From the NCBI RefSeq assembly GCF_017312365.1, contig NZ_BLJI01000002.1, positions 248,001 through 312,000 on the forward strand: a stretch of DNA of 64,000 bases, written 5' to 3'. Origin of the DNA: Chroococcus sp. FPU101. Its GTDB lineage: Bacteria > Cyanobacteriota > Cyanobacteriia > Cyanobacteriales > Microcystaceae. This document shows, one piece after another, positions 26,609-30,967 of this stretch. How positions within the stretch are numbered: the stretch's first letter is position 1; the number at the start of each line of letters is the position of its first letter. A model generated the notes under the pieces. The model did not search any database. It was not told the DNA's origin and was given only the letters and a program-made list of their open reading frames with translations. The position numbers and the translations under genes are program-made.

Positions 26609-26740
26609 ATGAAAGGCTTAATTGTGCCATCTCTAGTGATTATAGCAACAGGAATATTTGTAGCAGTTGCCTATGCAGACTCAGAGCATGATGCGACAAC
26701 AGTCGAACATACTCAAGTTACGCAAGTGCTAAACCATTAA
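26609..26740 (+). CDS. 43-residue exported mini-protein
   Basis: A short ORF beginning MKGLIVPSLVIIATG and ending QVLNH, with AGGGG seven bases before the ATG. The N-terminus is a hydrophobic stretch ending VAYA-DS, a good signal-peptidase site (AxA-type); the predicted mature part is about 20 polar residues rich in Glu, His, Asp and Thr. I know no family. It converges on the grr operon (grrM stop is 49 bases away). No aromatic-x-Asn triplets are present, so it is not an obvious second substrate of GrrM. It could also be a chance ORF, but the ribosome-binding site and signal peptide favour a real gene. Confidence 0.5.
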   Translation: MKGLIVPSLVIIATGIFVAVAYADSEHDATTVEHTQVTQVLNH

Positions 26741-26788: not shown

Positions 26789-27946
26789 TTAATTTAAGAG
26801 TAAAGTTTCCAACTGATCGAGAATTAGATCGGTAACACACTTAACTCGATAAAGACAGGCATTTGTCTGAGTTGAGCGAAACGTTCCATTCTCCCAGTAT
26901 TTATTACTTCCCGCACCTCCCCCACAAACACCAAAATAGGGGCAGGTTTCTCGACAGGATCTCACACCTGCTTGCATATCCTCATAAACGCGCCAGAATT
27001 TTTCCGTATGACAGGCTGACTCGAAAGAACTAGAAAGAACATTACCGAAAATAAAATCCCCGTAAGTTTCCGTTTTCACTGAAAGTAATTCGGGATCGAA
27101 GGTCGAAAAATTCCCCTGATGATCGATATTGATGATCATAAAGGGACGATTCATATCGGTATGATCTAAACGTGCGTCTGCGTAAATGAGACTACAAAGC
27201 GTTTCAAATTCCCTAAGTTTAAACTTTCCTTCTGTTTGTGTGACTAACTCCCAAAACCGCCCCATGAACTCACGATAACGCTGTTCGATTCCAGATTTAT
27301 TGAGCGAAGAAATCGGATGAACTCCCTCGCTTTCTTCCATATTAAAACCGACATCAATAATTCCGTTTTCCCAGAAAAAATTAAAAATCTCATCAGGATA
27401 ATTTAAAGAATCTTCAGTTAAAACGGCGATCGCATGAACCTCAATCTCGTGTTTTTGTAAAAACGAAATCCCCCGTAAAGTAGCCGCATGACTTCCCAAA
27501 CCTTTTCGGGTTTTCCGATGTGCGTCATGAAGAAAAGCAGGCCCATCGATACTCACCCCGACATAAACCGAATGTTTTTTAAACAGATCACACCAAGCGT
27601 CATTAATTAAGGTGGCGTTTGTTTGTACAGAGTGGCAAAAACCGTAACCCTTGGTATTATATTGATGACTCATCGATTCGATCAAGGGGAAAGCGGACTC
27701 ATAAAAGTCAATGGGAACAGCTAACGGTTCTCCTGCGTGCCAACAGATCGTAAAATCATCTTCTAAAAAACGGCTTGTAAAAATTGCCTTGAAAATCGGT
27801 TCGATTAACTCTAACGATAGAGTATTTTTTAAATGACGATTCGGTAGATAACAGTAATCACAATCGAGATTACAAAAGGATGTTGGTTGAACGACCACTA
27901 AAGTGATCGGGCCAAAATCCGACCAATTTAATACAGAATTTCTCAT
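26789..27946 (-). CDS. grrM: radical SAM/SPASM cyclophane-forming peptide maturase (GrrM/OscB family)
   Basis: A 385-residue radical SAM enzyme. C25, C29 and C32 (CNLDCDYC) bind the SAM cluster. The C-terminal SPASM region (C331, C335, C341, C364, C370; CPYFGVCGGG) binds auxiliary Fe-S clusters. The overall layout matches the anaerobic-sulfatase-maturase-like branch that matures Gly-rich repeat peptides in cyanobacteria. Members of this family join an aromatic side-chain carbon to the beta-carbon of the residue two places on, making three-residue cyclophanes. The likely substrate is the GrrA peptide encoded five bases upstream in the same operon. It is the last gene of grrP-grrA-grrM. Confidence 0.9.
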   Translation of the reverse strand: MRNSVLNWSDFGPITLVVVQPTSFCNLDCDYCYLPNRHLKNTLSLELIEPIFKAIFTSRFLEDDFTICWHAGEPLAVPIDFYESAFPLIESMSHQYNTKGYGFCHSVQTNATLINDAWCDLFKKHSVYVGVSIDGPAFLHDAHRKTRKGLGSHAATLRGISFLQKHEIEVHAIAVLTEDSLNYPDEIFNFFWENGIIDVGFNMEESEGVHPISSLNKSGIEQRYREFMGRFWELVTQTEGKFKLREFETLCSLIYADARLDHTDMNRPFMIINIDHQGNFSTFDPELLSVKTETYGDFIFGNVLSSSFESACHTEKFWRVYEDMQAGVRSCRETCPYFGVCGGGAGSNKYWENGTFRSTQTNACLYRVKCVTDLILDQLETLLLN

Positions 27947-27950
27947 CTTC

Positions 27951-28355
27951 TTAACGACGATTTAAAAAACCGCCCCCCGGTCTAGCGTTCCCAAAACCGC
28001 CACCATTGAGCCAACTGGGTCGATAATTATAAAATCTACCAAAATCTGACCAACCGTTACGCCAAGGTCTAGCATTAGCAAAACTGCCACGAGATCCATC
28101 TGCCCAACCTCCTACACGACTATTGACCCAACCTCGATTACCCCTACCGTCGCCCCAACCGAGGGCTTGTAGGGTGGGATCTTCTTCAGGATTCGGCATT
28201 TGATCGATCCGTTCTCGCATAACGGAGGAGAGACGGCTTAAACGTGCTTCGATCGTCATGGGTTGCTCTGTAGTTGCCTGTGCGGTCGATGGAAGGTTCA
28301 AGGCGGCTATAACCAGAAGAAAGCCAACTAAACCCGTTTTATTACTGATAACCAT
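27951..28355 (-). CDS. grrA: GrrA/OscA-type RiPP precursor with ten aromatic-x-Asn/Asp triplets
   Basis: A 134-residue precursor. Residues 8-27 form a hydrophobic signal-peptide-like segment ending TAQA. Residues 30-60 are a charged, helical leader. From 65 to the end comes a Gly/Arg/Asn/aromatic-rich core. The core has ten triplets of the form Trp/Phe-x-Asn/Asp, starting at W67, W76, W84, F92, W98, W102, F108, W115, F121 and F130, spaced four to nine residues apart. Such triplets are the known targets for three-residue cyclophane formation by GrrM/OscB-type enzymes. The product is therefore predicted to be a multiply cross-linked, exported peptide. Its biological role is unknown. It lies 14 bases after grrP and four bases before grrM. 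Confidence 0.9.
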   Translation of the reverse strand: MVISNKTGLVGFLLVIAALNLPSTAQATTEQPMTIEARLSRLSSVMRERIDQMPNPEEDPTLQALGWGDGRGNRGWVNSRVGGWADGSRGSFANARPWRNGWSDFGRFYNYRPSWLNGGGFGNARPGGGFLNRR

Positions 28356-28369
28356 GTTATGTAATCCTG

Positions 28370-29269
28370 TTATTTGCTTGTTTGCGGGTCAATTTGAGCG
28401 TGTTCGATGATGGTAAAACTAAAAAACCCTTTTAGGAGTTCTGAGGGAATGGGTACGAGTCCATCTGCACCAAACCAACGATTAATATTTGTAACAGTAG
28501 TGGCATCTTCCGTCACATAATCTTGCATCATCTTAACGATCGAATAATTGACGATATCGAGAAAGGTAGAGTTATTTTCGGGAACCATACAAGCCACTCC
28601 AAAACGAGCGTAGGGGTCTTCTGGCACCATTTTAAACTCTTTCGGATTCTCTCGAAGAATGCTACCTGCCAAAGCGACGCTATCACCTGCGATCGCGTCT
28701 ATTCTGTTGGTTTTCAGGGCTTCTATTCCCTCCTCTACTGTTGCGTAGGTAGTGATAATAGTCACGTTCGGTTGTACTAATTTTAAAGCATTCTCAGCGA
28801 CGGAATTAGGCACAACAGCAATCCGCTTACCTGTCAAAGATTCGGGAGTAGATAGATCGACTCCTTGTTTAGTTAACAAACGAATTCCAGAGATAGCATA
28901 ACTGGTGGAAAAATCGACGACTTTCGCTCGTTCCCAAGTGAAAGCAGTATCGCAAGAAATATCAATTTCACCGCTACGAAGTTGAGTGATTCTCTGTCCT
29001 GGGTCATTTGCCTCGATCATCTGTAGAGTGACTGGCCGACCGAGGGTTGTCTGTAGGTTTTCTCTGACTCTTTCGAGAACATCGATCGAGTAACCGACTA
29101 ATTCCCCTTTATCATTGATGTATGAATAGGGAATTGCATCAAAGCGTGTTCCTACTGTTAAAAATCCAGTACGAGCGACCTTTTCGACGACCGTTTCTGC
29201 TTGAACTAGACTCGGTGACAGAAACGGTAACAATAAGCCAAACCAAGCCAACTGTAATATTTTTTTCAT
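28370..29269 (-). CDS. grrP: GrrP, periplasmic substrate-binding-like protein
   Basis: A 299-residue protein with a cleavable signal peptide (residues 1-24, ending VQA) and a type 3 solute-binding fold (KVARTGFLTVGTRFDAIPYSY, then the two-lobe pattern with DISCDTAFTWERAKVVDFS). It resembles amino-acid ABC binding proteins, but no permease or ATPase gene lies nearby, which is the defining trait of the orphan GrrP family. It probably acts in the periplasm, perhaps binding the GrrA-derived peptide or a ligand linked to it; this is inference. It is the first gene of the grr operon, divergent from the gene at 29546 across a 276-base AT-rich gap that must contain the promoter. Confidence 0.87.
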   Translation of the reverse strand: MKKILQLAWFGLLLPFLSPSLVQAETVVEKVARTGFLTVGTRFDAIPYSYINDKGELVGYSIDVLERVRENLQTTLGRPVTLQMIEANDPGQRITQLRSGEIDISCDTAFTWERAKVVDFSTSYAISGIRLLTKQGVDLSTPESLTGKRIAVVPNSVAENALKLVQPNVTIITTYATVEEGIEALKTNRIDAIAGDSVALAGSILRENPKEFKMVPEDPYARFGVACMVPENNSTFLDIVNYSIVKMMQDYVTEDATTVTNINRWFGADGLVPIPSELLKGFFSFTIIEHAQIDPQTSK

Positions 29270-30229: not shown

Positions 30230-30967
30230 ATGACGCTCCTCATTCTTGCGTTAGCCAGTTGTACGGGTTGTTTTTTAAGTACCCTTGCAGGTGGTGGTAG
30301 TCCTCTAATTCTTATTCCAGTTTTAGGCATATTTCTCGACTCATCGGTTATTCCTCCCGTTCTTACGGTTGGTATGTTTATCGGCAATAGTCAACGGACT
30401 TATTTATATTGGAACAATATTGATTGGACACTGACTAAATGGTATGTACCTGGTGCGATCATTGGTTCAGTGATTGGTGCCTTTATTTTTACTAAAATAC
30501 AGTTTGAGTGGTTATCTTTAGTCTTTGGAATCTTATTAATCCTATCGACACTGAGTTATGTAGGTAAAGGAACAAAACCCTCATTTTCAGTACAAGCTTG
30601 GCACTTTCTCCCAGCTGGAATGATTTATGCTTTCTTATCGGGTTTAGTCGGAAGCATGGGGCCCATTTTAAATCCCTTTTATCTAAATTATGGACTCGAT
30701 AAAGAAGACCTGATCGCTACAAAAGCCTTTCATATGATTATTGTTCATTTTGTCAAAATAATTGCTTATATTGCTTTTGGAGTTATGACAAGACCCACTT
30801 GGGGATATGGAATATTATTAGGGTTAGCCGCTTTACCAGGGAATTGGTTCGGACAAAAAATCTTAAACCAAATGAGTCCCCAACAATTCCGCCAAATGGT
30901 CATGAGTTTTGTTGGTGTGAGTGGCATGATCCTAGTTTGGGAACAGCGACACATTTTTTTACCGTAA
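30230..30967 (+). CDS. TauE/SafE family anion exporter-like permease
   Basis: A 245-residue protein with about eight membrane helices in two homologous halves. The first begins with the family motif LAGGGSPLILIPVL and the second has LSGLVGSMGPILNPFYL. TauE/SafE proteins are thought to export sulfite, organosulfonates or related anions; the substrate here cannot be told. Its last nine bases overlap the 3' end of the FAD protein gene on the opposite strand. Confidence 0.87.
   Translation: MTLLILALASCTGCFLSTLAGGGSPLILIPVLGIFLDSSVIPPVLTVGMFIGNSQRTYLYWNNIDWTLTKWYVPGAIIGSVIGAFIFTKIQFEWLSLVFGILLILSTLSYVGKGTKPSFSVQAWHFLPAGMIYAFLSGLVGSMGPILNPFYLNYGLDKEDLIATKAFHMIIVHFVKIIAYIAFGVMTRPTWGYGILLGLAALPGNWFGQKILNQMSPQQFRQMVMSFVGVSGMILVWEQRHIFLP

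Follow-up and report, generated by a model that had tools for sequence, protein, structure and literature searches.

A stretch of 64,000 nucleotides from the cyanobacterium Chroococcus sp. FPU101 (contig NZ_BLJI01000002.1, positions 248,001 to 312,000 of the forward strand; hereafter the window) carries the genes grrP, grrA and grrM. Judged from its sequence, this locus is an intact, well-preserved addition to the known GrrA/OscA family of ribosomally synthesised and post-translationally modified peptides (RiPPs). Its precursor, GrrA, has ten candidate ring sites, each an aromatic residue with Asn or Asp two positions further on. The interpretation favoured here is that the radical S-adenosylmethionine (SAM) enzyme GrrM rings GrrA, that GrrA leaves the cytoplasm by the Sec route and that GrrP, which resembles solute-binding proteins, is the likely partner of the product. 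Taken as a whole, this is fairly probable. If it is true, one enzyme and the general export route of the cell would yield a secreted protein in which flexible linkers connect as many as ten stiff ring knots.

The locus and the triplets of its precursor

All three genes are on the minus strand, as are all features described below unless stated otherwise. They are grrP (28370..29269), encoding an orphan solute-binding-like protein of 299 residues, grrA (27951..28355), encoding the RiPP precursor of 134 residues, and grrM (26789..27946), encoding a radical SAM/SPASM maturase of 385 residues. The open reading frame (ORF) map places them in the order grrP-grrA-grrM with intergenic gaps of 14 and 4 bases, just as a preliminary description of the window had it. 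That description had also assigned the proteins to the Grr family, and NCBIfam profile searches bear it out for all three. GrrA scores 82 bits against TIGR04260 (curated cut-off 31) and GrrP, with grrA 14 bases downstream, scores 295.9 bits against TIGR04262 (curated cut-off 190). GrrM, on whose membership the earlier reading had been made to depend, matches TIGR04261 with 616.8 bits (curated cut-off 310) and is the single GrrM match in the source genome. The closest named relative among the loci compared, which were the best 80 of 131, is that of Aphanothece hegewaldii CCALA 016, with a GrrM identity of 94%. A tree built from 81 GrrM sequences joins this pair of proteins to the Microcystis sequences (support 100/99).

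The core of GrrA (residues 65-134, 27954..28163) contains 18 Gly among its 70 residues and exactly ten Trp/Phe-x-Asn/Asp triplets, at the very positions listed previously. How well are they kept? The preliminary description had proposed a conservation check on GrrA homologues. This was run on 19 orthologues of 52% identity or more, in which individual triplet columns are present in 10 to 19 sequences, and the aromatic residue and the Asn/Asp proved to be kept wherever the column is present. They are kept in 19/19 orthologues at triplets 1 (W67-G-D69, 28149..28157), 3 (W84-A-D86, 28098..28106), 4 (F92-A-N94, 28074..28082), 5 (W98-R-N100, 28056..28064), 6 (W102-S-D104, 28044..28052) and 7 (F108-Y-N110, 28026..28034). 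Among the orthologues having the column, they are kept in 17/17 at triplet 2 (W76-V-N78, 28122..28130), 18/18 at triplet 8 (W115-L-N117, 28005..28013), 16/16 at triplet 9 (F121-G-N123, 27987..27995) and 10/10 at triplet 10 (F130-L-N132, 27960..27968). The middle residue of the triplets is identical in 47% of cases and the linker residues in 69%. Composition does not produce such a pattern by itself: 200,000 shuffles of the core gave a mean of 1.70 triplets and a maximum of 7, versus the 10 observed.

Asn or Asp stands at +2 for 10 of the 11 Trp/Phe residues in the core. The third residue is Asn in each of the four Phe triplets; the six Trp triplets divide into three with Asn and three with Asp. 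The same preferences are found across the family. For this comparison 205 GrrA-like frames were reduced to 95 representatives at 80% identity, some of them incomplete, and 94 yielded a core (L104 was omitted). These cores begin at the first triplet, which was left out of the +2 count. Asn or Asp occupies +2 for 653/691 Trp/Phe residues, versus 127.5 expected, and +1 for 43/696. Of 405 Phe residues, 375 have Asn at +2 and 9 have Asp; of 286 Trp residues, the numbers are 172 for Asn and 97 for Asp. OscB has been reported to link C7 of Trp with the Asn or Asp beta-carbon and C4 of Phe with the Asn beta-carbon, in the part of the review drawn on here (PMC11002830). The third-position preference of Trp and Phe in the family is in agreement with those linkages.

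Is ten an exceptional number? The preliminary description had put weight on it, and this has to be given up. The number of triplets per core ranges from 2 to 12 with a median of 8, and 25/94 cores have ten or more. Ten predicted ring sites per peptide are therefore usual for the family. The same description had raised the possibility of an eleventh ring at F105-G-R107. This is unlikely because F105 and R107 are each conserved in 2/19 orthologues and Arg occupies +2 after Trp/Phe in only 13/691 cases in the family cores. A separate observation concerns a precursor frame adjoining GrrM that is open at the locus start (L067:1-360, plus strand), with 17 aromatic-x-Asn/Asp/Arg triplets in 120 residues. 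The record is labelled Candidatus Eremiobacterota, and mis-binning is possible.

Two neighbouring genes of the window can be added here. Convergent to grrM is an ORF of 43 residues with a signal-like start (26609-26740, plus strand). It has a 56% identical counterpart in its nearest relative, Aphanothece hegewaldii (L032), and no other match among the loci compared, many of which end before that position. About 1 kb past the grrP start, on the opposite strand, lies a gene for a TauE/SafE-type membrane protein (30230-30967, plus strand).

Predicted maturation and export

Both sets of Cys residues that had been pointed out in GrrM hold up in a wider comparison. The radical-SAM cluster motif C25-x3-C29-x2-C32 (27851..27874) and the SPASM cysteines C331, C335, C341 and C364 (26855..26956) are Cys in all 113 aligned GrrM sequences. 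By sequence, the nearest solved structures are anaerobic sulfatase maturases. Membership of the family suggests that GrrM forms cyclophanes. The GrrA leader stretch TIEARLSRLSSVMRERI (residues 34-50, 28206..28256) is conserved in the 19 orthologues and is a candidate recognition element. GrrM would recognise it and then, in the cytoplasm, turn the ten triplets into three-residue cyclophanes. Each bond would link an aromatic carbon with the beta-carbon of the second residue after it, joining Trp with Asn or Asp and Phe with Asn.

The next step would be export. GrrA begins with a Sec-type signal-peptide-like stretch (residues 1-27, 28275..28355), seen in the sequence and noted already in the preliminary description. 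By eye it consists of K6, a hydrophobic segment at 8-21 and a cut site A25-Q26-A27|T28. The rule finds a signal-like start in 78/83 GrrA family members of 100 residues or more. Of the five misses, three are frames with an upstream extension and two lack their start, one through the locus edge and one through trimming. A twin-arginine pattern occurs in 0/83 of these members and a lipobox pattern in 1/83. Among the genes common to the 80 loci, no exporter or peptidase stands out by eye. The start of GrrA suggests Sec export, and Sec with signal peptidase would be the simplest route. Ringed GrrA would leave through Sec and be cleaved after A27, giving a mature product of about 107 residues, periplasmic or extracellular, in which Gly/Arg linkers carry the stiff ring knots. 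Sec signals are described as rare among bacterial RiPP precursors, and their function in a natural host as shown only for bufferins, in the part of the paper used here (PMC12452194).

Several points count against this picture of maturation and export. The signal rule is crude: shuffled N termini pass it in 31/83 cases on average, with a maximum of 42, and 16/113 GrrM sequences pass it too. In the window GrrA it picked a site earlier than the AQA chosen by eye. The TauE/SafE-type gene about 1 kb from grrP may have a part in export. In addition, the ten triplets are predicted sites only, and the number of rings in the cell may be below ten. What if export competes with modification? In this hypothetical scenario only some of the triplets, such as the Trp or the N-terminal ones, would be ringed. 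The precursor has a Sec-like signal, the operon encodes no partner known to retain it, and in another RiPP class premature export is something that must be avoided, according to part of the account of that class (PMC12452194). However, unused triplets should drift, and for each of the ten, any orthologue with the column keeps positions 1 and 3. Partial ringing is therefore possible but doubtful. A more radical alternative is that GrrA is an unmodified Gly-rich surface protein in which the aromatic repeats are structural, and that GrrM has another target. A low-complexity core rich in Gly and Arg behind a signal-like start would fit such a protein. However, the triplets are under position-specific constraint, and OscB is reported, in the part of that review used, to act on such motifs (PMC11002830). 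Gene content is also against it. In a sample of 388 genomes of the class, the source genome included, GrrM is above its cut-off in 55 of the 57 genomes with GrrA, and the two are within 3 kb of each other in 48 of the 55 complete sets. An unmodified GrrA is thus highly improbable. The reading in which GrrM rings GrrA before its export by Sec is the one carried forward below.

GrrP and its linkage to GrrA

GrrP also has a signal-peptide-like start (residues 1-24, 29198..29269), with a cut site by eye at ...LVQA|ETV, and the start is signal-like by the home-made rule in 67/75 sequences. It matches the family SBP_bac_3. An AlphaFold2 model built on an alignment of 40 sequences has a mean predicted local distance difference test score (pLDDT) of 90.8. 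Its best PDB matches are DEBP/GltI-type glutamate/aspartate binding proteins and sensors derived from them, with 2ia4 reaching a template modelling (TM) score of 0.80 by target length. The same kinship is seen by sequence, since GrrP aligns with 2ia4. On the model, then, GrrP is a binding-protein fold of the amino-acid-binding kind. R114 (28928..28930) and D196 (28682..28684) are invariant in the 40 sequences and align with the Arg and Asp of the DEBP/GltI ligand site, residues that we take to be ligand contacts. C106, C227, F110 and W112 are also invariant, and both Cys align with Cys of DEBP. The alignment takes in an unlinked paralogue, so the Grr-linked form is not alone in having these invariant features. 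The source genome has a second GrrP-like protein above the TIGR04262 cut-off (contig C25, L150:5179-6072, plus strand), next to a gene that we read as guaA.

A binding protein of this kind might be expected to feed a transporter. However, no ATP-binding cassette (ABC) permease or ATPase was found among the six window neighbours scanned, one of which is the TauE/SafE-type protein. Inspection by eye of the 25 gene clusters most widely shared over the 80 loci revealed no permease family, and an ABC ATPase-like cluster occurs at 4/80 of these loci, 4.4-5.2 kb from grrM. Exported GrrP, with no adjacent permease, would then meet exported GrrA instead of feeding an ABC transporter.

The distribution of the genes bears on this. 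Above the cut-offs, the 388 genomes contain GrrM in 64, GrrA in 57, GrrP in 78 and all three in 55. GrrP accompanies GrrA in 56 of the 57 GrrA genomes and lies within 3 kb of it in 53 of the 55 complete sets. The order P-A-M is found in 35/46 linked loci. In a second sample of 118 genomes of relatives (source included), 44 have all three genes, with GrrA close to GrrP in 37 and close to GrrM in 28. Both samples together give 101 GrrA clusters in 90 genomes. Genes on separate contigs were scored as not near, and the GrrP list for these clusters omits genomes without GrrA as well as unlinked paralogues, and it includes the sub-cut-off GrrP of one genome (G122). On this scoring GrrP is near in 87 clusters, GrrM in 72 and neither in 6. 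Therefore, the link of GrrP to GrrA is no looser than that of GrrM. The genus coded g7, which we read as Microcystis, supplies 11 genomes in which grrP-grrA is apart from grrM, on the same contig at more than 0.5 Mb in 3 and on another contig in 8. In the named Microcystis loci grrM adjoins a gene that we recognise as MltA-like. Three loci have two grrP-grrA pairs and one grrM.

The linkage favours a role of GrrP with the product, and on this basis GrrP is the likely periplasmic partner. One genus carries much of the difference. Not all of the evidence points this way. Of the 23 clusters with GrrP and not GrrM nearby, 12 come from that genus and in 3 more (G436, G445, G448) GrrM lies 4.4-4.9 kb away on the same contig. 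GrrM and not GrrP is nearby in 8/101 clusters. The tie of GrrP to GrrA could be mere operon inheritance. GrrP also retains ligand residues of the amino-acid type and may bind a free amino acid. Perhaps, then, GrrM rings GrrA and GrrP is independent, sharing the promoter only and taking up or sensing a free amino acid without ever touching the product. The invariance of R114 and D196 extends to the unlinked paralogue, the top PDB matches bind Asp or Glu, and the paralogue in the source genome adjoins the presumed guaA. Moreover, GrrP-like proteins above the cut-off occur in 22/388 genomes without grrA and grrM, so TIGR04262 is not operon-specific. However, GrrP tracks the precursor. It is present in nearly every GrrA genome, at short range, and remains with GrrA where GrrM is elsewhere. 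Nine of the 388 genomes have GrrM and no GrrA above cut-off, and these have no GrrP above cut-off either (G127 falls just under, at 182 bits). The scarcity of transporter genes around the loci is a further argument against uptake. An independent GrrP is thus unlikely, to about the same degree as partial ringing.

Might the operon have a further member? Frames of 60 residues or more were clustered over the 80 loci, with overlaps thinned, clusters named by eye and many loci ending at contig ends. Three clusters recur widely, at 71, 42 and 40 loci, and by position these are GrrM, GrrP and GrrA. The next reaches just 9/80, and a further operon gene, whether exporter, protease or immunity gene, was accordingly rejected. 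Nothing seen points to a toxin, since the shared neighbours include no gene recognised as conferring immunity, which is weak evidence on that matter. Two incomplete loci were seen in passing. G007 (L151:3769-5090, plus strand) has grrP and a grrA with triplets, and no GrrM match at E 0.001 in the genome, perhaps through natural loss of the maturase. In the one-contig genome G122 (C1:755681-757247), GrrA is accompanied by a GrrM match to a 112-residue frame only and by a partial GrrP, which looks like a decaying locus.

A related GrrM branch and comparison with known systems

GrrM is also found in a different setting. WD40 or STAND-type proteins are encoded within 1.3 kb of grrM at 9/80 loci (L085, L087, L091, L092, L094, L095, L097, L098 and L104), and one more locus, L073, has a weak hit (24 bits) 3.0 kb away. 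These loci were found by sequence comparison; a looser pattern had found 5 loci and missed others. Eight of the nine fall into one tree branch of ten rows (support 100/96), the remaining rows being L093 and L105, and GrrM in this branch is 52-59% identical to that of the window. A GrrP-like protein is within 3 kb at 1/10 branch loci (L105), several loci being cut by contig ends. Precursors without Gly linkers, with arrays such as W-N-N-W-P-N-W-S-D, occur at L091, L094, L095, L097 and L098, and the precursor of L087 has F-D-D arrays. No precursor was found at L092, L093 or L104. Some of the STAND NTPase/WD40 neighbours, taking these loci together with L180, L181, L183 and L184 described next, contain TIR, CHAT and SIR2, or EAD4 and NB-ARC domains.

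Similar arrangements appear in the nine GrrM-only genomes, which supplied ten stretches, half of them ending at contig ends. Such arrays are present in four (L180, L181, L183, L186), and STAND, WD40 or NB-ARC proteins also in four (L180, L181, L183, L184). Only some of the stretches are independent, since L179, L180 and L181 duplicate named loci. Directly beside GrrM in three loci is a conserved protein of about 260-320 residues (L183:4692-5684, minus strand; L185:1189-1992, plus strand; L186:4837-5787, minus strand). It has no Pfam match at 0.001, and its H-x-D ... H ... R pattern looks to us like that of an Fe(II)/2-oxoglutarate oxygenase. For another such system, a paper on conflict systems predicts, in the part consulted, a radical-SAM enzyme that modifies a peptide effector (PMC7159879).

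What might unite the two settings? A tentative proposal, which we would put slightly above the two doubtful alternatives and still short of even, is that GrrA is a poly-cyclophane RiPP exported by Sec, with no need of an exporter or peptidase of its own, and that GrrP, a glutamate-binding protein that has lost its transporter, now serves as a periplasmic carrier or receptor dedicated to GrrA. GrrP would for this reason go with the Gly-rich precursor rather than with the maturase, and it would have been lost from, or never been part of, the branch in which GrrM serves STAND-linked arrays.

Known systems offer several points of comparison. GltI/DEBP and GrrP are alike in fold, in the invariant Arg and Asp aligning with the ligand site and in the two invariant Cys. 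They differ in that GrrP has F-T-W at 110-112, a stretch that DEBP does not show, and in that grrP sits with a RiPP precursor and has no ABC permease or ATPase in the six neighbours scanned. Bufferins and other RiPPs modified by multinuclear non-heme iron-dependent oxidative enzymes (MNIOs) likewise have precursors that bear a Sec-type signal and lack an exporter of their own, a likeness that for GrrA is predicted. However, in the part of the paper used they differ in enzyme class, in their Cys-based modification and in having a partner protein for the enzyme (PMC12452194). No MNIO and no such partner protein was found among the nine window proteins scanned. XncB, MscB and further three-residue cyclophane enzymes share the chemistry that joins an aromatic residue i to the beta-carbon of residue i+2, again in the part of the review drawn on (PMC11002830), and belong to other families with other motifs.

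No paper on this locus turned up in the searches made, nor any dealing with GrrP or with what GrrA does. The locus L048, presumably the source of OscB, encodes a GrrM that is 67% identical to that of the window. Its representative precursor has 5 triplets versus the ten of the window (a second L048 precursor was folded into a cluster and is uncounted), and its near kin L051 has 5 and 7. It is the GrrA/OscA1-GrrM/OscB triceptide system that the window resembles most fully, since its proteins score above the curated cut-offs and show the same motif preferences as the OscB linkages given in the part of the review used (PMC11002830). To this named family the locus adds one well-preserved member.

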